NCBI RefSeq assembly: GCF_964204645.1
Contig: NC_134030.1
Location: 18,171,110 to 18,235,109, forward strand
DNA: 64,000 bases
Direction: 5' to 3'
DNA from: Tubulanus polymorphus
Taxonomy: Eukaryota; Nemertea; Palaeonemertea; Tubulaniformes; Tubulanidae
Part shown: positions 1,829 through 43,856 of the stretch, in pieces
Layout: each line of letters begins with the position of its first letter
Numbering within the stretch: the first letter of the stretch is position 1
Program-made: the position numbers and the translations under genes
The notes under the pieces: model-generated
Database searches by the model: none
Seen by the model: only the letters and a program-made list of their open reading frames with translations
Told to the model about the DNA's origin: nothing

Positions 1829-4516
1829 ATGTCGATAAAATTCAGAAATGTCTGAAAGAAACGTATCTACAAATGATCGATGTTGAATATTACAAAGAGG
1901 TTTCGTGGAGGGAAGAAGTCACCAATTTCAACGATTTCTTCACCCAAGAACATGCGAAAATTCGACTCCGATAACAGAGAAATGAAAAAAGTGAGGAACA
2001 ATTATTGATTTAACCCGATGATTTCGAGAAGCTTTTCACTTATGACGAGCAGGGTGTGAAACCCGTGTGCCTCGTAGGTGAACCCGGTATGGGTAAAACT
2101 ACACAGATTGTCAATCAAGTGTTGTCATGGGAGCGATCACCGTTTCTAAAGAAGTTCCGTATGTTATTCTATATACCGTTAAATTAACTGCCCGCTGAAA
2201 ACGCGTGTATTTATACGTACATTTACGAACATCTTTTGAATCGAGAAATCAGAAAGGTTCTGCCGATTGATAGTTTTAAAGAATTCTTACGGGAAAATGC
2301 AGAAAATTCGATATTTTGCTAGACGGCTTCGACGAGTTGAAAAGCGATAAAGCGAAGAATGACATCGTACACGTGACCAATGAATTACCGAAAGCGTATA
2401 TCGTCATAACGACACGTGAGTTCGGGGGCAGCATGATCGTCACTGATCCAAAATTCACCGTTGTATCGATATCCGGCTTCAAACAGGAAGAAGTCATCGA
2501 TATTATGAAGAGAAAATTCCCCGAGCGCGATGCAGAAGAGCTATTCAACAAGCTTGCAGCCACAGCGCCACCTTTATTTAACAGAATCTACTACAACCCG
2601 CTGATACTACTTATGTTTTGTTTTCTGTATATGGACGAGGAAGAAATTACGATACCATCAAAACTCACCGATATCTACATCGATTTGACATGTTTTCTGA
2701 TCAGTAAACGCGAGGGCCTCGAGTTGTCGAAGGAATGTTTTTTCCGTAATATCGGAAATTCGGAAGCGCTTAATGAAATTTGTCAAGTCGCGTATGAGAC
2801 GCTCATCGCGCATCAAAACAGCTTCAGCAAAAATCATCTCAAACTCAACGAATCGAAGCGGACGGCTTTGACGTGCAAAGAGGTGTCGCCAAGACGGAAA
2901 TCAGACCGCTCCGTCCAGCTACGATTCATACACAAATCTTTGCACGAATTTATGGCGGCGGTACACTCGGTCGTGAAATTCAACAACAGTCGTGAAATAC
3001 CCTGGAATAAATGCGCGTTTGATCAACTACCGCGCGAACTTGTGAAATATGGTGAATTATACCCGAGATTCATGGCAGGGCTGCTGCATCGTTACAAGCA
3101 TAACCACGGCCTCGGTGAACTTTTCAAGACTTTGATAGATGAACATTTAAAAGCAATCACAATAGTGGATAAGTACAATTCCTTGGATTTCATTACGAGT
3201 GAAGAGGTGATGCTCATTCCCGATTACGAACGCTACATCGAACTCCGATCTGAAAGAACTGATTTATCTGATCAGTGGTCAATCTACCTGGATGAAGCCG
3301 ACTGGCCGGACGACGCCATTAGTGAAATAGTTCCCTACATGCAGAAAATGTTGTTCGTATCTGAATTTAGCAGATCGCAGATAAACATGCTCGCAAAAAT
3401 ACTCGAACACAAACAATGTCAGATCGAGTTAGTTTACATAAAGTATACTGACACACTGAGCCCGGACAAATACCGCGTATTAGAAACAGCCATAGCGAGT
3501 AACACTAGTCTTCACGGTATGATAAAAGATACACACTGGTCATCAATACGTGATCAGTACTCGAGTATGTGTAAGAAGAGCAACAGTATAAACTGGTTTG
3601 TGCGGCTACATGAAATCCGCGAGACTGGTGAATGTTACAAGAAACTCGATAATGAATGGATTAAGACAAGTCACGTGATTGAATCTGATGATGACACGCA
3701 GTTGATCAGTGGTACTAACACACACAATACACTGGAGATTCTGATTATTGATACTGAGGTTAGTGCGAAACTTTTTGACAACATTCAGAAATCCTATCCA
3801 TTCCTGAAGCATCTGTATCTCCGCGTACCTCCCAGTAAAGGTGAAAATATAAACAGAGAGCTGACAAACTTGATCCCGGGCTTGAAAAGCTTAGAACTCT
3901 ACGGAACATTCAATGAAAATTTGACAAGGGAAGAATTGATGGACTTTAATAGCGCCATAAAACGTTCAGGTATCGAAACAATTCGGCTCAAACAGTGCGG
4001 AATGCGCGAACTAACGACAGATCAACGTGGAGCAATCAGTGATAGCGTCGGTTCAATGCCGAAACTAAAACGTCTGTTCATTGGCGGATTTTATTTACAA
4101 ATAAACCGCATTCTAGATCACCTGCCGCGGCTGACTGTATTATCGATACGGTTGTGGTCAGATGATGGTGACGCACTTGTTGGGTATCTATCATCAGATG
4201 CGGTAAATCAGCTGCGAGTAGTCTGTATTGATAGCTATCTCTATAGACAGGAACAGAACAATCGCATCTTACAACAATTTAAAAACGTCTCATCAATTCG
4301 TTATTTAAAGTTTCACAGTTCAGTCGCGCCGATTAATACACAGCACGATATCGATTTATTCGTCAAATTAATCGTCGAATAATCAATAATCTTCCGCATC
4401 TTTCTGACCTGTATATCGGCTGCTACAGCACCGACCGCGATACGACGAGAGATTACATCATATCAGAACTTAAAAAACTCAATAAAAGAGTGAGAGTAGG
4501 AATACACATCATGTGA
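1829..4516 (+). pseudogene. NACHT-LRR (NLR) receptor pseudogene
   Basis: NLR proteins are cytosolic ATPase sensors of innate immunity. The exon starts after a good acceptor in phase 1. The NACHT Walker A (GEPGMGKTT) is at about 2071-2097, Walker B (LLDGFDEL) at about 2313-2340, and a TTRE sensor motif follows. A winged-helix region ends in the typical HKSLHEFMAA motif near 2930-2960, and leucine-rich-like repeats run to the end. Three in-frame TAA codons (1972, 2011, 2185) and a frameshift just before Walker B break the NACHT part. A second frameshift near 4375 separates the last repeats, which stay open to TGA at 4514-4516. The 688-codon open stretch from 2316 to 4382 is otherwise well kept, so inactivation looks recent. 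Death-fold N-terminal exons were not found. Confidence 0.85.
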
Positions 4517-4659
4517 ACCATCTAGAGATTCATCAGATTCATCGGGATATATCGGTATCCATTCATCAATAAGTAGATTCATCGATTTATAAGATTCAAA
4601 CGACTAACGCGCATTTTGTATACAACGTCGCTTCTCTAGAGACAGAACTGAAACTGAAC

Positions 4660-4905
4660 TGATATTCGGAGGAATATTGTTTCCGCAATATCGAAAGTTT
4701 GGAAGCGCTTAAAGAAATTTGTAACGTCGCGTATGAGACGCTCATCCAAGACTCATGGCAGTATAATCGCGGCCTCGGTGAACTTTTCAAGACTTTAATA
4801 GATAAACATTCAAAAGCAGTCACTATTGATGAGGAAGGTTTCGATGATTAACGATAATAAAACTTTCCAGATGGCGGCCCTTTCCGATTACGAACGCTAA
4901 ACGTT
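4660..4905 (+). pseudogene. second NLR fragment with internal deletion
   Basis: 4665-4750 closely matches 2735-2812 of the NLR above. The next part matches about 3090-3160 and then a short stretch near 3220-3235, so several hundred bases between are missing. This is a deleted second copy and supports a former tandem NLR array here. Confidence 0.7.
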
Positions 4906-5345
4906 ACAATAAACCTCACCTCGGACTTTGGGGTAATAATTTCAAATGATTTCTCCAAGCTCGGACTTTTGAGTAACTGGACCAAAAACATGGATCACTT
5001 CTCTGAATTTCTATAACCAAATTTTTCCCTTCTTAACTCGCACTCGCTCACGTCGAGCCAATGTCTAATTGTTGGAGTTAGATGAGGTATATTAAGTTTA
5101 ATGAAGATGATATTTTAGCTTAGCGGTTCTTTGTGACACTTTCGAGAAAAACAAAACTCTCTGTAATAATAATGTATATATAATTATTTGATAACCTCAG
5201 AGATGTTGACAAATACAATTTATTTGATATTTTCCTATATAATTAAGAATTATGATAACTTGGAAAAATTGGAAATATTCTGAAATAATTCGTATCTTAT
5301 ATTAGAGTTTGTATGTATTTTATATATCTCGGTGATGGTTTGATG
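4906..5345. other. no gene recognised
   Basis: AT-rich sequence without a convincing open frame, RNA gene or repeat. Confidence 0.4.
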
Positions 5346-5750
5346 TCATATCATTCCCCCTCGCAACCCTCCCTCCATCCCTACCAACCCTCTCTCCACC
5401 CCAACCACACCTCCCACCCCTACCAACCCTCTCTCAACCCCTACCACACCTCCCACAGCTCCCACCCCTACCAACCCTCTCTCCACCCCTACAACACCTC
5501 CCACAGCTCCCACCCCTCTCTTCACCCCTACCACAGCTCCCACCCCTACCAACCCTCTCTCAACCCCTACCACACCTCCCACCCCTACCAACCCTCTCTC
5601 AACCCCTTCCACACATCCCACCCCTACCAACCCTCTCTCAACCCCTACCACACCTCCCACCCCTACCAACCCTCTCTCAACCCCTACCACACCTCCCACC
5701 CCTACCAACCCTCTCTCCACCTCTACCACACCTCCCGAACTCCTACCACC
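5346..5750 (+). repeat. C-rich minisatellite
   Basis: Tandem units of about 18 and 36-39 bp built from CCCCTACCAACCCTCTCT and CCCCTACCACACCTCCCA, with about ten imperfect copies. Open frames on both strands (Ser/Pro/His/Tyr on +, Val/Gly/Glu on -) follow from the repeat length and are not evidence of coding. Confidence 0.9.
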
Positions 5751-6099: not shown

Positions 6100-8960
6100 A
6101 TATACTGATATGTGCTAAACTGACTACTGAAATATACAGTGTAACTGATTTATAGTGTAGCTGAAATACATTGTTACTGAATAATAGTGTAGATAAATTA
6201 CAGTGTAACTGAATATTAACGGGATATACTTAAACTTATCTTACAATGTATAACTGTATTTTGTTTTAAATGCAATGTAACTGGTTTACGGTTTAACTAA
6301 TAATAATGATAATAATGTTTTATTCGCGATTTAAATTACAATATAAATTAGCAGAAATTGAGGTGATTTTAGAAATTCTAAAATTCTAAAAGAATTTTTT
6401 TTAAATTCTAAAATTTAAGAAATTACTAGAAATTGCTAATAATGTAACGTGCTTATTTTATTCGCTTAAATAAAAAGAATTTATATATAGATATTTCTTG
6501 TGTCAACTGCAGCTGGAGTAGAATCGACCCCTGGTCGCGATGTAGCTAACAGCATCGGATATAAACTGATATATCTCATGCAGTATTCAATTTTTTAATC
6601 ACTTGATGGATTCAGATGTTTAGATTGAAATCTTTGTTGTAAACTTTATGCATGGCGGGGAATGGATTGATTTTAGTAGATTTATAGAGCGAAGATGCAT
6701 TATGACAGTTAGTGTAATGTAAGTTTACTGATCCCAATGAAATGCGACACTTGGTTATTTGACCATTATTGGTTTACGTGGCGCTGTACCATTCACCAAG
6801 AACCTGCGAGTGTCTGATGTTACTGCAGTTTTGATGGGATCCTAGAGCGACGCAGATCACTGTGGAGACAATCACACTGTCAGGACTGGGTGTAGATTGT
6901 ACCATAGATCTGTTTTACCACCGGTACGTATGTCTTCACATCTAGAGGTGTATGTACATATCTCCCGTAAAATCAGACAAAATATCTATACTTACCTCTT
7001 GTGAATAAGTTCAACTAAATACAAGATGTAACTTGATAAAGGTGAGTTATTGAGGTTTTAATTTCTACTGCATGTGTTAGAAATATTCTTCTCTTCTAGA
7101 AAGCGCTGCTACAAACACTCTGAAAATGTCTTATTCCAGGTAATTGTTACAGACCAGTTTTGGAAGTAAAGGCTATCTGAACATGAAAGTGGAACTCTGC
7201 ATGATCAGGATTAGAGGGCGGTGATGAAATATCCAATGTCTGCAGGGATGGACAGAGACTGCTCATCTATTGGTTAAACACATTAGAAATGAAACTACAT
7301 TGTACATTGTAGGTATTTGTAGGTATTGCACAGACTACAATGTTCATGTATCGAGTCAAATCCTGATGGTGATAGTTGCAATTTTTTCAGATGAGCTCTT
7401 CTTCCTCAGGATCTGGATGCTGCCAATACGAGCTGACGAAACCAACCTGACCGGATAGATAGGTGGTGAGTAGATGACCAGATCATAATGTGTTACGTAT
7501 CAAGTAAGATTAAAACTTCTAATAGTGATCGTTACGTTTTTATTTCAGATCCAGCTCTTCTTCCTCAGGGCCTGATTGCTGTCAATCAGTGCTGACTAAA
7601 CCAACGGATACTAAATTAGTTGTCTTCACACCTTCCTCACTTCTTCGGGACCTGATTGCTGTCACGCTGGGCGTATAAACTGCAGTTTAAATGTGCACGG
7701 TCCGATAGAAGATGACTCCCGTGGAAAAGATAATCCAGAAACTGCTCACATTAATTCGGTGAGAAGACATTTTAACTGTTTGTGGTATATAGGAAACACT
7801 TCATCAATGATACAACGCAACTATTTGACTAGGTTTAAATCACGTTTCAACCACGTTTTTCAAAACGGTTGTTTATTTGATTCCCAGAGAAGCTTCAACT
7901 GTTTTCAAACGCTTAATTTTGTAGGGAGCCGAAAGTCAGGATATCACCGACCTGAAGATGAGCAAGGTTTACTAAACACAAGCCAACGCAAATCAAGGCG
8001 TCCAGTGAGAAGTACGGATATTAGAACGGGTGGTTTTATAACGTGTTTTGTATTAAACTAGTTTGTTTATCGGTATTTTCAATAGAATTCGTGAATCTAT
8101 ATTTTATTTCTTGTGTTTAGAGGTTAAATTTCAAATTATGAGCTACCTCAGGTAATTTGAATTGATTTGGTAGAGAAAAACGAATCATATAATTCTAGCT
8201 ATCAATTCGTAGAGGTTAAAATAGTATGAAAATAATTCTGTTTGTTTTACTAATGTTCGAATTGTACAATATAAAACCACCGTCACGACCAATAATGAAA
8301 TGATATCTAACTAATTTGAAGAAGTAAAAATTTTGTGCCAGAATTTTTATTTTCCTCCAAAAATATCGCGATTTCAGTTAATGTTTGGGTAATTCTCAGT
8401 GACTGTAACTACCATTAAAACTGACAAGTTATGTAGGTCAATTCCCACCGGTTGTTGCCACGGCAACGAATTATGATGTAATCTTTGTGAAAATGAAGTT
8501 TAAAAACGAGCTATTTTTGTTGAATTCAAACAGAATGAGACGTGTTTGTCTCCACTGTTTTAGGCAGTATTTTGAGTGACGATTCCATCGATCTTTCATC
8601 AAGATCGACAATATACATAGTTTGTATCATGAGTAGGCTATACTTTCAATAAAATAAGTTAATTATGATTATAAATATTATCTATCTTACTTTTCTGTGG
8701 ATGAATTTGTTTCGAAGGATATACGAAAATAAAATGATGAATGCGAGCTGAACCAATCAGATCTAAAACTTCATCATCTTCAAAGTGCGCGGATTACAAA
8801 GATAAGTGGGGTTCGAACCTATTGTCGCCGGATCAAAGAACATATCTAGACTGGTTACCGGTCTCTATCTTCAATTCCATATTGAATGGTAGACTGGTCG
8901 CCTGTCCAATTCTGCGCCACCTGCATTCGCAGTCTAACTGAAGGTAGAGACCGGCAACCA
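6100..8960 (+). repeat. 2.9 kb block, copy 1 (direct repeat of 43970-47060)
   Basis: The whole stretch aligns co-linearly with 43970-47060 with small indels and scattered substitutions. It begins in a low-complexity zone of reiterated TACAGTGTAACTGAA-like units. It contains an open 122-codon frame at 7693-8061 that starts at GTG, not ATG. It also holds exon-like units at about 7388-7450, 7548-7612 and 7630-7665 that share CTCTTCTTCCTCAG followed by a GATTGCTGTCA-like core. A short third match lies at 33075-33135, just 3' of receptor gene A. The block therefore travels with the receptor genes. No function can be assigned. Confidence 0.85.
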
Positions 8961-9540
8961 GTCTAATTGAATGGGACAGGCAACCAGTCTAACTGCCGTG
9001 TAAAGCAGTAGTTGTAACTGATCGTATTTTATACAGACACGTTTACAATATTATATAGTTCACGGTCAGTATTATAGCAACCACTACTGACAACATGTTT
9101 TGGAAGAGTATTTTGCGGCCATAAGATTTTTCTTTTCTAAGTAGAATCTTCGACATTCTAAACTCGAATTTTCGACTTCAACTTTATCGCAAATCATACA
9201 TAAATCTTAACTGTGCATTATTTATTTCATATTCCGGCGGTAAGTCTGCGCTGTTATTTTAGTTCACAGAAATTCCGCTAACGTTATTCATAGGGGCAGC
9301 ACTGACCGGTTCGAATTTCACACAGCCTCGCTATTCTACTGTGGCATGCGAGGAATACAGATATTTTCATTATCATTACCGTTCAACACTAGCTTACTTT
9401 AAAACATAGAAGTGTCAGCTTACACTTCTTTGTTCGTTCAGAATAATCCGTAAATACAGCTTTTAAAGTGATAGAATTATCCTTACGAGTAAAATCCCAC
9501 AATAAATGAATTAAATGATAAATGTTTATTAAAAACATAT
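8961..9540. other. no gene recognised
   Basis: No recognisable coding or RNA signal. Confidence 0.4.
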
Positions 9541-34040: not shown

Positions 34041-34340
34041 AGTTATGGAACGCGATTCATGCAATAAACATGACCATTGTTACGACGTAGGATAATTGCT
34101 GCGCCGTAGTATATTTGCGTCGGTGTATATTTTCTCCGACGTAGGATAATTGCTGCACCGTAGTATATTTGCGACGTGTCTACTTTTCATCGCATCTATT
34201 TCGCTGCGACGTGGGTAGTTTGTAACGACGTAGCTTATTTACGTGAAGGTTCCATAGTTCACCGTATGGTGGCGCCACGGTATTATATATTCAATAAAGT
34301 TAGAATTTAATTGAATCATATCGCTCTTTTCGACGCAACA
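34041..34340 (+). repeat. left 300 bp terminal inverted repeat
   Basis: Begins AGTTATGGAACGCGATTCA and ends CGACGCAACA. Internally it holds two tandem copies of ACGTAGGATAATTGCTGC followed by a CCGTAGTATATTTGCG-like unit, and more CGACGT motifs. These are the kind of subterminal repeats that serve as transposase binding sites. Further in, a GGTGGCGCCACC-like palindrome is present. Confidence 0.95.
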
Positions 34341-34903
34341 TAGTACGCCACAATCCGAAACTTTACGGATGCAATTCTTTCCGAGTTGAAACTTGATGAA
34401 GTAATAGAAACATTCCGGAGGGAAAATGTAAGGATAACTATTCAATATAAGGACAATAAGCCCATCCATCCACATATATACATAGGCCTACCACTTACCA
34501 CCAGTGTCGAGTGCCGCCGCCGGCGGACGATACGTTGATGGATCTGGATGGATGGATCGTCGATATGGAGAAGATCCAGACCATATCGTCGCCCGGCACG
34601 TGCACCCACTCCCGGACGATCGTCTCCTGTTGATGGAAATGAATTGTGATATGTTAAGATCATTTTATTATTATAATGACTAATGACAGGCTAGGCAGCT
34701 TTACAAGCCTGAAGTAATGTCTTGTGACGTGTAATAAGGATGTAAACTAAGTGCTCTTCTGGCTCTGGTATTTCTCAATAACCGGGAGCAACATTTTTCC
34801 AGGCGCAGAGTCTAGGCCTACTCTCTCGAAGCGGTAACATAATTGGGCTCACAGCACAAGCGAGATAATGTGTTTTGCAGAATATTTTCATTATCTTATT
34901 CAG

Positions 34904-37900
34904 GTAACTCCAGCAGCTGTCGTAGCAATGCTCGACACTGACCTCACCTCCATGGGAGTAACAAGAATGGGCGATCGAGCACTCCTGAAAGTGAAATGTC
35001 GGCACTTTATATCATCAACTAGTGTTAATCGTCCAAGTGAGTAAATGGGAATTTACAATCATAAGTTGTAATAACGAGTACCAGTACTAAACCTATGCTT
35101 TAAATTTTTAGCTGTACCTATTCCGTCCTATGACATAGGCAAGGAGAGGAAAACTTTATTTACATCAAAAAAAAAGGATCCGAAAAACAAGTCGGCTATG
35201 ATGAAATAAACTTTCTTTTGTCTAGGCAATCCTGACTGTGTAAGTTATAGATTTTCATTCATATACCAGCAGTTCAGACATTGAAAAGTTAATAGGCCTA
35301 TTGTAAAGCTGTTTTGATTAAAAAATACCAAAGTAACTGTACATTGTATAACTCAAGTTAATAACTTGCTTTTGCAGAAGTTATCTTCGAATTATCACTA
35401 ATACGATCTGTTTCAATAATGATTTTATTTCATTGCTTCCAGATGGTTATTCCGCATGACAGGGAAAGTAGACTTAGCCTGATACAGTCAGGATTGGGCG
35501 AGAAAACATTGGAAATAGAAAAAGATTCAACATTCATAGAACTTCGAGGTAAATTGTTCGAAGTGTTTCCACAGTTGTCCACCGGTGGTGGTTTCGAGTT
35601 TCTTGCTGCCACGGCAAATAAAATGTTGGAGCTGCTTGACATTGAAAGCAGCTCCATCACACCGTATGCCTTGAAGAGCCTTGTGGCTCGAGGAAAAATC
35701 TATATTCGCCCCATACAAAGAGAGATATTGTCGCAAACTACTCCAAAGGTGAGTCAATGAACTATTTTCTGCTGTTCTTATAAATGATCTTAAGTATGAA
35801 TAAAATTTGTTTCTGGTTGTAGGCGGAATCAGTGAAAGAAAAGTGCTTGAAATGCGATCAGGAATTTCCACTCTCTTTGTTGAGGGAACACACTGAAAGC
35901 TGTGACGGGTATATATTTTTTCTTATTACAACGAACTTCACAGGACCAGAAAATCAGAACCCAGTTCCACAGTTGTGAGTTAAGATTTGACTCTGAGTTA
36001 AAACATTGAAAATGAACTAATTTTAACTCTAACTCACTACTGTGGAACCGGGTCCTGTTGGTTAAAACCAGTATAAAATAAATTTGTCTTACTTGGGTCG
36101 CAATTCTATATACATGTATGTTATCCGTATCTGATGAATTGATTTATTGTTTGTTATGATGAGGATTCCACTCTACAGATGAGAGGAATTAAATTTTTAA
36201 ATATTATTCTTAAATCGCTAGTTTGATCGATGATCTACCGAAGATTTCAAATGCTGCTGCTGCTGCTGTTGCTGCTGTTAAGAGGAGCATTTCGTCTGTA
36301 TGTATAGCTTGTAATACACACGTACATTGTAACAAGATGTTTCAGATTGCAGGCAATAACAGTTTATTATGTTTGTTGTATCTGCTGAATTAAAAAGTAC
36401 ACTCACTAAATATTTTATCAGTGATAAGTTTTCTATAATGGACCTAAGGATTATTATTATTATGGATTACAGACAAATGATGCAGAAACAAATCCTAAAC
36501 AAGTTCGGCCTAATTCAGCCTACAATTTCCACAGGTACGTTTCTTCAGCAGCTATATTCCACATTCGCTGTATATGGTGATGTTGATGTATGTTTTACAA
36601 TTCATCATCAGGTGTCAATACTACCTACCATACATGTAAATGTAAGATATTTAATGCATTATTAGTTTCATAAAAAGCCGAGATGATTGTCTTAAATGGC
36701 TTGCTTCTTCCCAGCATCCTGGACACACCCTCTGATTCTTGTACTAAATTAGCTTATATAAAATGCATAATTGGTTTTATTTTAGGCACCAGGAGTTTAT
36801 TGATCTTACTACCGATTTAGATATGATGTTTCCAGATGATGACAGTGATGCAGATTTGAATCAGGCAATTGCTAACAGCTTAGCCGAGGTGGTGGAACCA
36901 CAATTGAAAGAGGAACGGTAAGCCACGGTCGTAAACTTTTCACTGTCAACGTGAATTGTATTAAACTCAGGAAATTGAAAAACTATATTTTCTTGCATTA
37001 ACATTCATAGACAATTTCCTATCAGCTTTTCACGATGCCACATTCACACTTGTCATGGATAATCCAAATTTATTTTACAGTTACGGCATCATTATCTAAA
37101 AGAACAAAGGTAGTAGCATGGATATATTTTTGTTACCCAGTCTATATTCAGGTCTCTGCTTTTTATATGTCTATGTGTACTTTCTTAGGCTATCGGTGTG
37201 TAGATTTATTATATATGGTACATGTACATGCTTTCCTTCTCAATGGGGAACCCACAACACCAGCTATCTATGGAACGCGATTCACCCACCAGATGGCGAC
37301 AGGTCTTCCGTTCTCAAAATCAGTTCATTGAATTTCATTGAACTGAATTTTTAGACTCGCGAATCCGTATACTATGCAAATATGCAATAAATTCATTCTT
37401 TTACTTAGGTATCGGAAAGATAAGAGAAAAATTCATTCAGATTTAATTAATCGAAATGTGGAAGAAATTGAACGCGGACGACCAACTATCTACCAGCGAA
37501 CCTGGCGGATCCTCGCCTGCCATGAGTGGAATCCTCGATTGCCGCAGTAGCGGTGTGTGGGTGCCCCATACACTCTAACCCTAACCAAAAAAAGTATTTG
37601 TTAACATTCACAAAAGCGACTGTAACCAAGTTTAAATCACATCATTATGTTGCACTTCATTAAGGTCTTTTCAATTTATTTTCAAAGGTTAAATATAGAA
37701 TGAAATATTTTCACTTTAGGGATGGCCGTTCTCTTGAGGTTATCGTAAAAGACCACGCTGCCAAGGTAGTTGAACAAGATTCCGAAGAGACATTGAGTTT
37801 CACGTGTAGAAGAAAGTTTATCTTTAAAGATGCCGTTGCTAAGCTGAAGAGGACGAATTCTTCAAAACTAACCAAGCCTGTTCAAGTGACCTTCTTGGGA

Positions 37901-39531
37901 GAGGCTGGAATTGACAATGGTGGTCCTCGAAGGGAATTCCTGGAATTAGTCATTTCAGAGGCTGCTAGATCTCCGCTTCTTGTTGGGCCAGAAAATTCGA
38001 GATCACTGAGTCATGACTTGGTAGCTCTGGATAACAGATCTTTTTTTCATTTTGGCCAGTTAATAGCTTTGAACCTTATTCATGGCGGGGCTGGGGCCCG
38101 CTTTTTTAATTCATTAATTGCCAAAATTATCCTGTACGAGAAGTATGATGCCAAAACAATCGTTGTCGAAGAAGTGCCTGATGTCGATTTACGCAAAAAA
38201 CTACAACAGGTGTAGTATTCATTGATTTTTTTAGCCCATTTGTACTGAAGTCCTAGTGGGCTGTTGCATTCACTTTTTAACCCACTTGGGCTATTGCTAA
38301 TTCCTCGACCTGTAGCTTCCTAATGAGTTTCAAGCTCATTGATTTGTATATGTTTACCATGATGTTGAATATTGAATTGTCAAATTGTCAAGCATTTCAC
38401 AAAGTAGGCATGGTTTCCCTGGACTCTCAGTTCAAGAGTTTGTATTCGGGTTCATTATAAGACAGTACTAATACACTTTTGATTGTTTCAACTTTCTTTT
38501 GCAGCTAAATGAGATTTGTGACGAAGCTGAATTGGTGAAATTTGTAGATGAAAATCTAGAATGTCGCTTTGAAATGGGCTTTACAAAACCCTCTATTTTC
38601 ATAAAATTGTCCGACAAACAAAAGATAGTAGAGTATCTGGCCTTGAACTCCCTGGTTCACCGTTCAAAATCAGAGCTAAACCAACTTCTAGAAGGTTAGT
38701 ATTTTACAGTTTAGCAGTAGAATTTGCGAATGCAGCTATATTACATTTCGGTCTCAGCTTGGGTTTAAGGTTGTTTTCTGTTCACGCAGAGAGCTCGGTA
38801 CGATTCTGTTCATTAGGGCTACAATGTTTGAATTCTTGTACATCTTATGTTATGCAGGCATGTCGACTCTCGGAGTTCTGGATCTCATCCGCAAATTCCC
38901 CTCATCATTCGAAAAGGTCTTTAGTGGGGCTCCAAGTCCAATGTCCGTAGACTACATGACACAGTTATTTCATGTTGATTACTCCCCTCCTGGATCAAAT
39001 AAGAGGGTAGAAGAAGAACAAATTATCATGAATTGGACGTTCTTACTCGAAGAATCATTTGGTAGGTTTAAGCACCTCCTGGTGTTATCATTTATACATC
39101 TACAGTCAAAATCCATTTTAAGGCTGCTATTCTTTTTAATTTCACTTTTATTTTTCACAGAACAAACTTATGTAACAAAATTATTATTTCTCTCCATTCT
39201 GAACGTGATAATTGAAACAAACAATGAGTTATTTTCATTAAATTCTGTTACAGAAGGCAATATCAAGGAAAAAACAGATGTTGGCGAGATGACCCTGTCC
39301 TTGGAGGATATTCACATGATTGTCACAGGATCTTCTCAGAAACCAATAATAGGTTTCCACCACAAGCCTAGGATCGAGTTCAATCATAGTGGTGATGGAT
39401 ACTTAGTACATGCCAATACTTGTGCCATGGTAATAAGACTTCCAGTGAATAAAAAGATGCTTGAGGTTAAAAGTTTTGTCAAGGAGATAACATTTTGTAT
39501 ATACAATTCCCCGGGATTTGGATGTATATAA
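34904..39531 (+). CDS. HECT-type E3 ubiquitin ligase with SAM, Zn-finger and UIM modules
   Basis: Candidate exons: 34904-35036 (SAM-domain C-terminal half, DLTSMGVTRMGDRALL), 35443-35748, 35823-35908 (CLKC...H....C, a UBZ-like zinc finger), 36222-36297, 36473-36534, 36786-36917 (UIM: DLNQAIANSLAE), 37409-37552, 37720-38209, 38505-38694, 38858-39061 and 39254-39531. The HECT N-lobe has TFLGEAGIDNGGPRREF. The C-lobe has the catalytic Cys in ANTC before AMVIRLP, and ends PGFG. Phases agree from 35443 onward. The link from the SAM exon is out of phase, so an exon is missing from the model. Exon 37409-37552 reads TAG at 37548, just before its donor. Overall it resembles G2E3-like HECT proteins. 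It would transfer ubiquitin through the Cys; substrates are unknown. Confidence 0.75.
35950..36057. repeat. small palindromic MITE
   Basis: Arms CCAGTTCCACAGTTGTGAGTTA and its near complement ending CTGTGGAACCGGGTCCTG flank a short core. It lies inside a HECT-gene intron. Confidence 0.7.
37269..37284 (+). repeat. 16 bp copy of the element's terminal sequence inside the HECT gene
   Basis: TATGGAACGCGATTCA is identical to positions 4-19 of the 300 bp TIR and then diverges at once. It lies in a HECT-gene intron. Confidence 0.6.
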
Positions 39532-40149
39532 AATGATTTTATACATGCATTCATTTTAAATGGATATTCGAAGTAAATCAACATGAAATCCTCATGACAC
39601 ACATCCCATTTGTTTGTATGTTTTATTTACTATGTATTAAGTCGGATAATAGTCCTAGAATCTTTACCCTTTAAAGCTCAAAGCACCCTTTTTGTCAATA
39701 GCTAGTATGACGGTGGTCGGGAATTGGGCCTGATCCCTCACGAATATAAATTCCGTCCCCGCCCAGCATACTGGTTGTTGACTCTTAAAAGTGCCCCCTC
39801 TTGGAATTTATCAAAGGCAGGTGATGGGAAATGTGCCATCATACACTCACCTTTGATATATCCCTAGAGTGGGCCAGGCTTTAAAGGGTAACAGGTTCAA
39901 GGGAAAACCGGTCATTGAATTTGTCAGTCAAGGTTTCAGTTCAATCATATTGATATCGAAAGGCTTGTTGTGGATTGACAATTAACATTCCAGTTTATGA
40001 ACTTATGTTTTATTCATAAGACTACTTCGTTATTCATTTATTCAGTCCATTAAGTTTTTATATTTTTTGAACAAATAATACATAAAATTGGTGTTTCAGA
40101 TAAACGATTCAGCTGGTTTCTATCTATATACAGTCAAGTCTACAGTCGA
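39532..40149. other. spacer between the converging HECT and integrase genes
   Basis: No coding signal; two inverted phrases around 39680 and 39880 (CCTTTAAAG) suggest a further small repeat. Confidence 0.4.
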
Positions 40150-40459
40150 CAGTCAACTCCTCTTAATCCGTAGAAGTGGGACCTGGCAAAATCATACGGA
40201 TTAACTGAAAATACAGATTATTTGAAAATTCTCAGAATATTAATACCTGGCCTAGTATAGGCAGGAAATAGCTCTTAAGGGGTGTATTATTAATTTTTTC
40301 ACTTGTAAATTGATTACTTCAGCATTAATACGGATTATTTCATACGGATTAACTGAATAATTTATTAAGGATTTGAACAAGAAAAAACGGGACTTTGAAA
40401 TGACTACGGAATAATTAAAAATCCGGATTAATGGGATCCGGATTAAGAGGAGTTGACTG
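40150..40459. repeat. Tc1/pogo-type MITE, 310 bp
   Basis: The ends CAGTCAACTCCTCTTAATCCG and its reverse complement are perfect inverted repeats, and a second inverted CATACGGATTAACTGAA-like pair lies inside. Terminal CAGT and a TA at the right flank fit pogo/Tigger-derived MITEs. The left flank is GA, so a TA duplication is not clean. The right end lies 4 bp from the stop codon of the integrase gene. Confidence 0.75.
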
Positions 40460-40463
40460 TATA

Positions 40464-42132
40464 TTACAATAATAAATGCAGGAAAGCTTGTCGGATTTCA
40501 ATATAAGCATTTTTTCCTAAGTCATGTTCTGTTTCCATTGAACTTCTTGACAACTCTTGGAACACTGGTAGATCTGCTTCATCTATGGGACATGGAGTTA
40601 AGGGCACCATAACTCTCTCGTGATCATCCAAGTTAGCTGCCATTAGTTCCTAAATGAAAGAGAATATAATTGGCACACATCATTTTGAGCTCAAAACTTG
40701 TATTACCAATTTATACAGAATATGATTATAAATAAATTAACTGAAAAATTATTCTACTGAAAAAGTTGTGCATGTGTTTTTTTTTTCGCTTACCAAATGA
40801 TCACCAACAGGAGGGCTGCCTTGGTTTTCACCTCTTAACCATAATTGAAGCGGTGACTGACCCACTGTTCTGACCTTATGACATATCCAGGCATCAATAA
40901 AGCGATTAATGCTGTTTTGTAGGCGGGGTAGAAAAACCATGTGCAAAACATACAGGTCAACGTCATTGTCTGCTATCAGTAAACCTTCTTCTTCTAGTGA
41001 ATGAAATAAATTATAGAAGGTAGATGTGCAGAGAGAATACACATCGCGCCAAAGTCTTTCTATCCGTTGATTGTGGACACTGCAGCCAGTAATAAAATGC
41101 CCAGGGCCTCTGTCAGGATGTGCAATTATGTAATCAGCAATTAAGACATTTTCTCCACCGTGGTCTGATCTAACTTTCTGGGGTAGCCCATATCTTTCGA
41201 CTGCATTTTTGAAACTCCTAAAAACTGTATCTGCTCTATTGTTGTTGCTACATCTCATAAAGACAGGAATCCGAGAAAATCCATCAATTCCCCCATGAAT
41301 TACTATACGCCATCTGAAAATTCAATAAATGTTATCTTTCAATGATATTGTTCATACAATGTATTACTAATATCCATGTAACAATAATGCTTTCTTAATT
41401 ATTGTTTGAAATACACATGAACTTCTCGTCAAAGGCTAAATATCGTGAAATCATTTTGGATAGAATACTTCATTTTGATATTTTTCAAATACATCGAGGA
41501 AATATTAAGTGTAAGTGACAAAAATCTATACCTAATCAACTTATGATTGCCATCTACATGCCATATAAAATTTGGCCCTGGAACCCAATATTCTCTTCTC
41601 TTCAGTGTTTTCCGTTTCCTCTCATCGATTCCATCTGGGTCGACCCGTCTTAACGACTCCCTTATCCGGTCACGCTGAACTCTAAGGCCTAAACTTTGTA
41701 TGTGGCCAGCATGTAGCTTTTCTCCCCAATTAGGATGAATGGCTACAGCATCTGCCACGATGTCATCAAGAATATCATCTGCAAATAGAAAAATTATGCT
41801 TTATTTGCTAGTAAGAAATACAGTAGACTCCGCCTAAACCAGTACAGTTGGGACTTTAATTTTTTCCACCGAATTAGGCGTTTACCGGTTTAAAGAAATG
41901 CGAAAACCAATGTAGCTGTATTCAGATATCATAGGTGATTTACAAGACCTTACCCACCTGATAATTTATCTGACATATTAGAGACGCGAAGTCCAAATTC
42001 CATAACACGTTGAGCAATAGTTCTTTCACAAACATTGAACATAATGCCAATCTCTTTATAAGTGAATGTATGTAGAATAAGATATTCAAGACTTTGATAT
42101 GGTATCTCTCTTTTAGGTCTTCCACGAACCAT
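40464..42132 (-). CDS. DDE integrase/transposase of the 9.8 kb element
   Basis: Four exons with matching phases: 42132-41958 (phase 1), 41778-41532 (phase 2), 41313-40794 (phase 0) and 40649-40464, 375 residues, with no lesion found. The N-terminus has a helix-turn-helix look (TYKEIGIMFNVCERTIAQRV). The integrase core shows the triad Asp in WHVDGNHKL, Asp in VRSDHGGEN, and Glu in NQRIERLWRD about 45 residues later. It should cut and join the TIR ends as the element's transposase. The fold is that of retroviral-type and IS3-type integrases; similar proteins occur widely in fish and invertebrate genomes. It converges on the HECT gene. Confidence 0.85.
41815..41930. repeat. pogo-like MITE end fragment
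   Basis: TACAGTAGACTCCGCCTAAACCAG resembles pogo/Tigger termini. Only one end is clear. It lies in intron 1 of the integrase gene. Confidence 0.4.
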
Positions 42133-42195
42133 TGCTGAAATTTAATTATCTAGCATCAGATTAATAGGAAGAGAAGACATACGAGTATGACTAAA

Positions 42196-42622
42196 GGGAG
42201 CATCTCAAAATTTCGATAGTTACTTCAATTAGAATAACTGTCTAATTCTTTCTAACCCCCCACCCCACCCTTTCAAAGTTGGAACTATTGATTTTCTAAT
42301 GAGAAACCACAGACAAAGATAAAACATTCTAACGAGTGTATTTCGCAATTATCACAACTTTTAATTGAAAAATAAAATAGCAAAATTACAAGTGAAAAAC
42401 CTATTAAAGCCTAATAGACTTTTATAAACAAAATAAAATACATCTAAAATATCAACAGCATCTAAACGAGAGACGGTTCAATTCAATGTTATCTTTATTG
42501 CACCACAATAAATCGATAGTTCGGCAGTGGTGATGAATCCGCGGGAGGCCTTTACCCCCCCCCCCATCCCCTTCCGCGAGTTATTCTAATTGAAGTAACT
42601 ATCAACATTTTGAGATGCTCCC
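42196..42622. repeat. MITE with 44 bp terminal inverted repeats
   Basis: GGGAGCATCTCAAAAT continuing through TTACTTCAATTAGAATAACT at the left is mirrored at the right end (AGTTATTCTAATTGAAGTAA ... GATGCTCCC). TAA-like flanks would fit PIF/Harbinger MITEs, but the duplication is not exact. Confidence 0.75.
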
Positions 42623-43556
42623 TAACTGAATATAATCAAGCAATCTCATCTCATTATTGGCCATTGCCTCAAATTGTTGAGCAAGAAATAATTTCAATAT
42701 TATGACATACCAACTTCTCGTGGAACTGGATTTTTGCACTTGTCTATCAGTAAGACTCTGTCGCCAAGATTGTGGACTCCTAATTCCACAAGCTGTTCAT
42801 GAGAAATATGCTTTACGATATCAATATTTACCTACAACAAAATGGTTAAAAATAAAACAATACTTTTATCTAGCGGTAATATTATCATTTGAATTGGTAA
42901 TATCCCATGATCCAGGAACCCATACACTCTCTGATATTCGGACTACTACTACTACTACTACTTACATTTTCTTCTTGAAATCTTTCGATTAGATGGTGTA
43001 GATTAAGTTCTGAGAGTACGACATTCATTGTATTGGAATTTGCGCGGAATTTGCCATTTGAGCTCAGACCACTATTCCAAAATCTTCTATATCCTATAGT
43101 AAAAACAAGAAATTCAAACGTTTAGTTCACATATAAGCGCGTAAATTCAGGGGAAATCCTGCGTATGCCTCATAGGCCAGCATCTTAGCTACGCATTTAA
43201 GTGGTTTTCGCCCCATGTACCCAACCTAACTTTTGAAATAATCAAACCTTTAGAAAGGAGGGGTATCCCAGTACAGGTATGCCAGTACATCCGAGCCAAA
43301 TATCTAAGGGAATCCCCCACCGGGTTTGGTACCCTTACTCCAAGCAAAAAAAGTCCAGGGAATCCCTTATTTCATCATCAATCTGTCTCTCAGGACCAAT
43401 GGATTTCATACATATAACCGAAATTCGTTACCTATCCCATTTGCAGAATTATGGCAACATTTATGGAGGACCTCTTTTTCATTTTAGGTACCTAATTGTG
43501 GTCTGATGCCATTTGCTCAACAAGCAATGGGGAATGGACCATGGGGAATCCCTGAG
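42623..43556. other. element interior, no gene recognised
   Basis: Between the integrase promoter side and the right TIR. Contains a short ACT microsatellite near 42944 and no motif-bearing frame. Confidence 0.4.
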
Positions 43557-43856
43557 TGTTGCGTCGAAAAGAGCGATATGATTCAATTAAATTCTAACTT
43601 TATTGAATATATAATACCGTGGCGCCACCATACGGTGAACTATGGAACCTTCACGTAAATAAGCTACGTCGTTACAAACTACCCACGTCGCAGCGAAATA
43701 GATGCGATGAAAAGTAGACACGTCGCAAATATACTACGGTGCAGCAATTATCCTACGTCGGAGAAAATATACACCGACGCAAATATACTACGGCGCAGCA
43801 ATTATCCTACGTCGTAACAATGGTCATGTTTATTGCATGAATCGCGTTCCATAACT
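43557..43856 (-). repeat. right 300 bp terminal inverted repeat
   Basis: Exact reverse complement of 34041-34340 by direct reading over the full 300 bases. Confidence 0.95.

Follow-up and report, generated by a model that had tools for sequence, protein, structure and literature searches.

The window analyzed here is a stretch of 64,000 nucleotides from the nemertean Tubulanus polymorphus (NCBI RefSeq assembly GCF_964204645.1, contig NC_134030.1, positions 18,171,110 to 18,235,109 of the forward strand). It contains a DNA transposon of 9,810 bp (34044-43853; ends TATGG..CCATA) that encloses two genes, a HECT ubiquitin ligase gene on the plus strand and an integrase-type transposase gene on the minus strand. 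The extent of the element was established by comparing the ends of its copies. All genome searches covered the 267.8-Mb T. polymorphus assembly.

The element and its two genes

A preliminary description of this DNA had placed two recognizable genes between identical inverted repeats of 300 bp. Both genes were modeled where they had been expected. The repeats required a slight correction. The inverted arms at 34041-34340 and 43557-43856 are indeed 300 nt long and 100% complementary, and 297 or 298 of these 300 bases are common to other copies. Together with the compared ends this indicates that the true repeat is 297 bp and that the outermost 3 nt on each side are flanking DNA, complementary by chance. 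Chance was ruled out as the source of the repeat itself, as 297 of 297 bases match. Since the terminal repeats are inverted, the element lacks the direct long terminal repeats of a retrovirus or long terminal repeat retrotransposon (no separate search for a reverse transcriptase was made). The features of the element are as follows.

34044..34340, plus strand: left terminal inverted repeat, 297 bp, begins TATGGAACGCGATTC
34368..34427, plus strand: HECT gene, first half of SAM-like domain; the start codon is lost by a net deletion of ~50 bp just upstream
34904..35036, plus strand: HECT gene, second half of SAM-like domain; Pfam SAM_1 and SAM_2 below cut-off
35378..35748, plus strand: HECT gene, unnamed-domain exon, which recurs in other families; clear from ~35443, upstream boundary uncertain
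35823..35908, plus strand: HECT gene, C2HC-type zinc finger exon; Pfam zf_C2HC_14, below cut-off
36786..36917, plus strand: HECT gene, ubiquitin-interacting-motif-like exon, recognized by eye; no Pfam match
37409..37546, plus strand: doubtful HECT exon of 138 nt that overlaps a dispersed repeat and can be skipped in frame
37720..38209, plus strand: HECT domain, N-lobe exon
38505..38694, plus strand: HECT domain exon
38858..39061, plus strand: HECT domain exon
39254..39531, plus strand: HECT C-lobe exon; presumed catalytic Cys (ANTCA), terminal GFGCI
40464..40649, minus strand: transposase exon 6, ends in the stop codon
40794..41313, minus strand: transposase exon 5, remainder of the rva_4 core (RSDHGGEN, HNQRIERLWRD)
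41532..41778, minus strand: transposase exon 4, where the rva_4 core begins; presumed first catalytic Asp (WHVDGNHKLI)
41958..42134, minus strand: transposase exon 3, helix-turn-helix region by likeness to relatives; no helix-turn-helix match of its own
42711..42831, minus strand: transposase exon 2, second half of SAM domain
42966..43028, minus strand: transposase exon 1, start codon and first half of SAM domain
43557..43853, minus strand: right terminal inverted repeat, identical to the left one

The transposase model runs from 43028 to 40464 on the minus strand. Its six exons, joined across GT-AG introns, encode 437 residues with start and stop codons, and the window copy has no lesion, as the preliminary description had claimed of its integrase. 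The core matches the Pfam family PF24764 (rva_4) at 238 bits (9e-71; cut-off 26) and the start of the protein matches SAM_2 at 28.0 bits (2.5e-6), which is above the cut-off of 20.5. A T. polymorphus protein is 99% identical to the model across 79% of its length. A protein search found 3,574 relatives of the transposase, of which the best 120 were listed. The relative P0091 has SAM matches at its start that fall below the Pfam cut-offs, and it has 22 of 53 residues in common with the transposase SAM segment. No relative was found in the viral contigs searched.

The exons of the HECT gene (34368-39531, plus strand) give an open frame of 693 residues in the window copy. Pfam HECT matches at 31.8 bits (cut-off 23.9), whereas SAM_1 (19.1 bits) and zf_C2HC_14 (19.4 bits) remain below their cut-offs. 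A sequence search with the protein finds the RSP5, TOM1, and E6AP chains, and a protein search with the gene model gave two relatives among the 8,000 scored candidates, those with the most words in common. Two relatives retain both the presumed catalytic TC, whose columns are invariant, and the GFG end. By its HECT domain and C-lobe cysteine, the predicted gene product is a HECT E3 ligase. The multi-domain HECT ligase of the preliminary description is supported, but the window copy of the gene is incomplete, being without ~50 bp and a start codon. No Pfam family matches the exon of the unnamed domain (35443-35748). The doubtful exon (37409-37546) has no stop in the HECT frame, and 26 of the 74 genome matches of the HECT model are dispersed hits to it. 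At 37269, inside the element, the 15-base terminal sequence TATGGAACGCGATTC occurs exactly once more, and likewise in the four other copies; this is perhaps what is left of the end of another element.

The SAM segments of the two genes resemble one another. They are identical at 22 of 54 residues, and in both an intron of the same phase interrupts the segment after the residues EN. This likeness, with the common place and phase of the intron, speaks for a shared origin of the two segments.

Copies, target duplications, and empty sites

The preliminary description had proposed a DNA transposon that mobilizes both genes and had suggested a search for copies, target-site duplications, and empty sites. 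That search gave four further copies, in which pieces of more than 800 bases match the window copy at 98.6-99.6%.

C10:5246272-5256062 (copy c10a): both arms present; part of the transposase core missing
C3:12952233-12980344 (copy c3): large insert; one SAM exon missing
C5:13130033-13164832 (copy c5): large inserts; part of the transposase core missing
C10 near 4.85 Mb (copy c10b): one arm lost

The five copies are spread over four contigs. HECT exons are present in all five, so that absence of the HECT gene from the other copies was rejected; transposase exons are also present in all five, incomplete in some. The arms had 30 matches in the genome, 10 in the five near-identical copies and 20 in diverged pieces of 74-96% identity, and hence did not prove to be a widespread unrelated repeat. 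The four other copies have ~50 extra bases at the start of the HECT gene, including the start codon (MDAILSEL). The c3 HECT gene has both a start codon and an open frame, and those of c5, c10a, and c10b have frame breaks. A complete HECT frame is thus found in one of five copies, as is a complete transposase frame, and these are not the same copy. Divergence from the window copy was 0.37-0.59% in HECT coding sequence, 0.17-0.50% in transposase coding sequence, and 0.64-0.82% in non-coding DNA (the comparisons are not independent). The lower coding divergence is a mild sign of constraint.

Target duplications of 6 bp flank three copies. Those of c3 (TCACTC/TCACTC) and c5 (GTTCTT/GTTCTT) are exact, and in that of c10a (GTAGAG/GAAGAG) five of six bases match. 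Empty sites were sought by using the joined flanks of a copy as the genome query. The c5 flanks found C2:17474457 (91% identity) and the c10a flanks found C3:12822234 (98%), each with one copy of the target. The window copy has no target duplication (ACCAGT/ACTTCT), and flank searches gave no empty site for it; its flanks resemble two different repeats (loci L040, L041, and L042 are involved) and so do not share a target site. The left flank belongs to a repeat, two copies of which were read and diverge after CCAGT, and the right flank resembles another place. The lack of a duplication would follow if two copies had recombined or if sequence had been lost on one side.

The window copy without its duplication and c10b with one end lost would also suit an account without any transposon pair, in which segmental duplication copied a host HECT gene along with an integrase gene close by and the arms are an unrelated repeat. 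The target duplications, the single-target empty sites of two copies, and the presence of copies on four contigs contradict that account. Segmental duplication of host genes was rejected on the empty sites, and we consider it exceedingly improbable. The ends, target duplications, empty sites, and co-amplification show that the two genes are mobilized together, as parts of a single element.

A smaller element of 1.2 kb (locus L025, 4068-5270) has diverged arms of the window element's family and the duplication CTCGAG on both sides. It is probably a non-autonomous relative. When its joined flanks were used as query, four places elsewhere matched across the empty junction (1-141 to 1-167 of 240, with the junction at 120; 85-91% identity).

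Pairing of HECT and transposase genes across the genome

The preliminary description had suggested testing the co-occurrence of the two genes in other species; here it was tested across other transposon families of the T. polymorphus genome. The Pfam rva_4 scan of the genome gave at least 40 matches, which were merged to 32 loci, and the Pfam HECT scan gave 85 matches. A Pfam HECT hit was found within 5 kb of 3 of the 32 rva_4 loci (shifted null: mean 0.11, maximum 2 in 5,000) and within 10 kb of 4 (null mean 0.21, maximum 3). When the HECT places found by protein search were added, 11 of the 32 loci had HECT within 12 kb (null mean 0.73, maximum 5 in 5,000). The HECT list used in the 12-kb test held 37 of the 85 Pfam hits, 6 of 74 model matches, and 35 of 57 protein-search matches; other exons of the same place, repeat hits to the doubtful exon, and places found twice were left out. 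Ten of these 11 pairs are tail-to-tail and three are copies of the window element's family. Four further loci (L032-L035), chosen as high scorers, were read directly and all four have a HECT gene in tail-to-tail orientation, while copy c3 is paired across its insert. In total 16 of the 32 rva_4 loci have HECT nearby, 15 of them tail-to-tail, and 4 of the 16 belong to the window element's family.

Core pieces at the paired loci L029-L035 are ~40-58% identical to the window transposase. Locus L029 is a complete second family, an element of 7,165 bp with ends TATGGAACGC and the duplication TGATTC/TGATTC. The TATGG..CCATA ends are common to the window element's family, L029, and a third, young family, L036. 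In the L036 family a HECT frame of 632 residues without stops (Pfam HECT 36 bits) is present at six places on five contigs, with 100 in the identity column. A 1-kb piece of the transposase region adjoining this frame gave 22 matches, which merged to 16 places (one of these, C4:12858186, is a 94-base match at 74% and thus a relative of the L036 family). HECT lies within 12 kb at 15 of the 16 transposase places, tail-to-tail in all 15. Seen from the ligase side, of 35 HECT places 15 lie by an L036-kind transposase and 3 by an rva_4 locus. The HECT/transposase pair therefore recurs in several families of the T. polymorphus genome. Taking these results with those on the copies, we regard it as nearly certain that both the element and its transposase/HECT pairing are real.

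The L036 copy has arms that begin TATGGTGGCTG and, as judged by eye, the duplication AATATG/AATATG. The inverted repeats of the L036 locus are largely made of 144-bp tandem repeats (7410-8966). With the window HECT model as query, a SAM-like exon was located upstream of the L036 HECT frame (tblastn E 3.7e-4). A search for long proteins holding the rva_4 core gave eight, and none has HECT in its Pfam annotation, nor was HECT found in the scan of six of the eight.

Possible role of the ligase and comparison with known systems

IS3EU elements have TA..TA ends and target duplications that are usually of 6 bp, according to the available part of one report (PMC10045372), and the accessible passages of another give the ends of rust-fungus IS3EU elements as TAYGG..CCRTA (PMC12730594). 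The ends, duplication length, and rva_4 core of the window element fit the IS3EU/GingerRoot superfamily. This placement takes rva_4 to be the IS3EU core, and it relies on such features rather than on an IS3EU reference sequence or tree.

We judge the chances about even that this is an autonomous-type IS3EU/GingerRoot transposon in which the SAM-rva_4 transposase and the SAM-like, zinc-finger, HECT ligase form a fixed pair, with the ligase serving transposition. In such a scheme each gene, which starts near one inverted repeat and points inward, would be driven from its own end. The ligase might then dock on the transposase complex through SAM-SAM contact and ubiquitinate the transposase, thereby dismantling the strand-transfer complex or setting the transposase level; alternatively, its targets could be proteins bound at the element ends. 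The docking idea derives from the alike SAM segments. We consider it somewhat unlikely, and slightly more so since one SAM test proved circular and two SAM matches are below the Pfam cut-off. The circular test used a SAM profile for which the L036 segment was one of four source segments; its hit at L036 is therefore uninformative and only its misses at L029-L035 count.

Several results weigh against such a fixed pair. No HECT gene was found at 16 of the 32 rva_4 loci (15 judged from the search lists and L037 read directly), and for 17 of the 35 HECT places the search lists show no transposase within 12 kb. One of the 11 pairs of the 12-kb test is not tail-to-tail. At L037, which belongs to another rva_4 branch, the 10 kb read contain no HECT gene; together with the other unpaired loci this indicates that the ligase is not required by every rva_4 transposase. 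(The L037 transposase, at 4278-5483, is a single-exon gene of 401 residues.) The HECT frame is broken in three of the five copies of the window element and start-less in one more, and the coding exons are just mildly less diverged than non-coding DNA. As to the SAM segments, the match in the HECT gene is below the Pfam cut-off, the SAM-exon profile found no SAM at L029-L035 (seven of the eight paired loci searched), and SAM is outside the 25 commonest of 45 families among the 114 transposase relatives scanned, and hence a SAM fusion is uncommon there.

Broken or start-less frames in four of five copies, and half of the rva_4 loci with no HECT gene found, are what might be expected if a host HECT gene had been captured once and were retained merely by its position between the ends. 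Such a neutral passenger fails to account for a pair that recurs, nearly always tail-to-tail, beside transposases with such divergent cores, nor for the stop-free HECT frame that the L036 family keeps at six places on five contigs. A neutral gene should have decayed, and a pair kept across such distances speaks against one. We think it improbable that the ligase is a hitch-hiker, and probable that it was selected for transposition.

A ligase of use to the element could act elsewhere. It might be an anti-silencing or anti-defense factor that targets a host protein (for example, one involved in small-RNA or chromatin silencing) for degradation without taking a direct part in strand transfer. Accessory genes are known in the superfamily: TET/JBP and alpha-kinase genes occur on the rust-fungus IS3EU elements, and the former are proposed to permit escape from silencing in the portion of that report available (PMC12730594). 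The ligase also has putative ubiquitin-binding modules (one recognized by eye and one below cut-off), and frequent pairing would fit equally well. By itself, however, this explanation leaves the alike SAM segments of transposase and ligase unaccounted for. We view it as a serious possibility, although a less favored one than a fixed pair serving transposition.

Many eukaryotic DNA transposons are known mainly by their transposase. That a ubiquitin ligase accompanies the transposase in several families within a single genome hints at a transposition strategy that includes protein modification, and the transposase and ligase make a concrete, testable protein pair. Transposon origin also offers a simple explanation for the expanded HECT families of animals, which annotation may count as host genes. 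In the available passages on a fish repeat library, 27 of 122 unclassified candidate elements match proteins such as G2E3 (PMC5638112). The broadest proposal would be an animal IS3EU-like branch in which two proteins serve mobility, the transposase and a dedicated HECT ligase that is docked on it through SAM-SAM contact and controls the life of the transposition complex, with the large and poorly explained HECT families of invertebrates and fish being mostly transposon genes and their domesticated descendants. This we regard as doubtful, slightly more so than docking by itself, and we have lowered our estimate owing to the circularity of the L036 SAM-profile hit and the two SAM matches below cut-off.

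A literature search, outside which Repbase entries lie, gave nothing that joins IS3EU with HECT and, among the papers listed or read, no description of such an element; the HECT passages that it brought up concern other subjects. The word ubiquitin was not found in the available passages of PMC10045372 and PMC12730594, nor was HECT in those of PMC12730594. The string "transpos" was not found in the main text of Marin's survey of animal HECT genes.

Like IS3EU, the window element's family has an integrase-type DDE core, TA..TA ends, and 6-bp target duplications, whereas the HECT ligase gene and the SAM domain on the transposase set it apart. Ulp1-like or OTU-like proteases occur on MULE, Ginger2, and Helitron-like elements. 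Those transposons are likewise mobile elements with a ubiquitin-system enzyme, but theirs removes modifiers whereas the ligase of the window element would add ubiquitin. The rust elements with TET/JBP or alpha-kinase genes belong to the same superfamily and, in the passages available, have oppositely oriented transposase and alpha-kinase genes (PMC12730594); the window element differs in its accessory enzyme and in its host. Finally, animal HECT ligases, including G2E3, share the HECT domain, the cysteine, and the GFG end with the window ligase, but the window HECT gene has been shown to lie inside a transposon.

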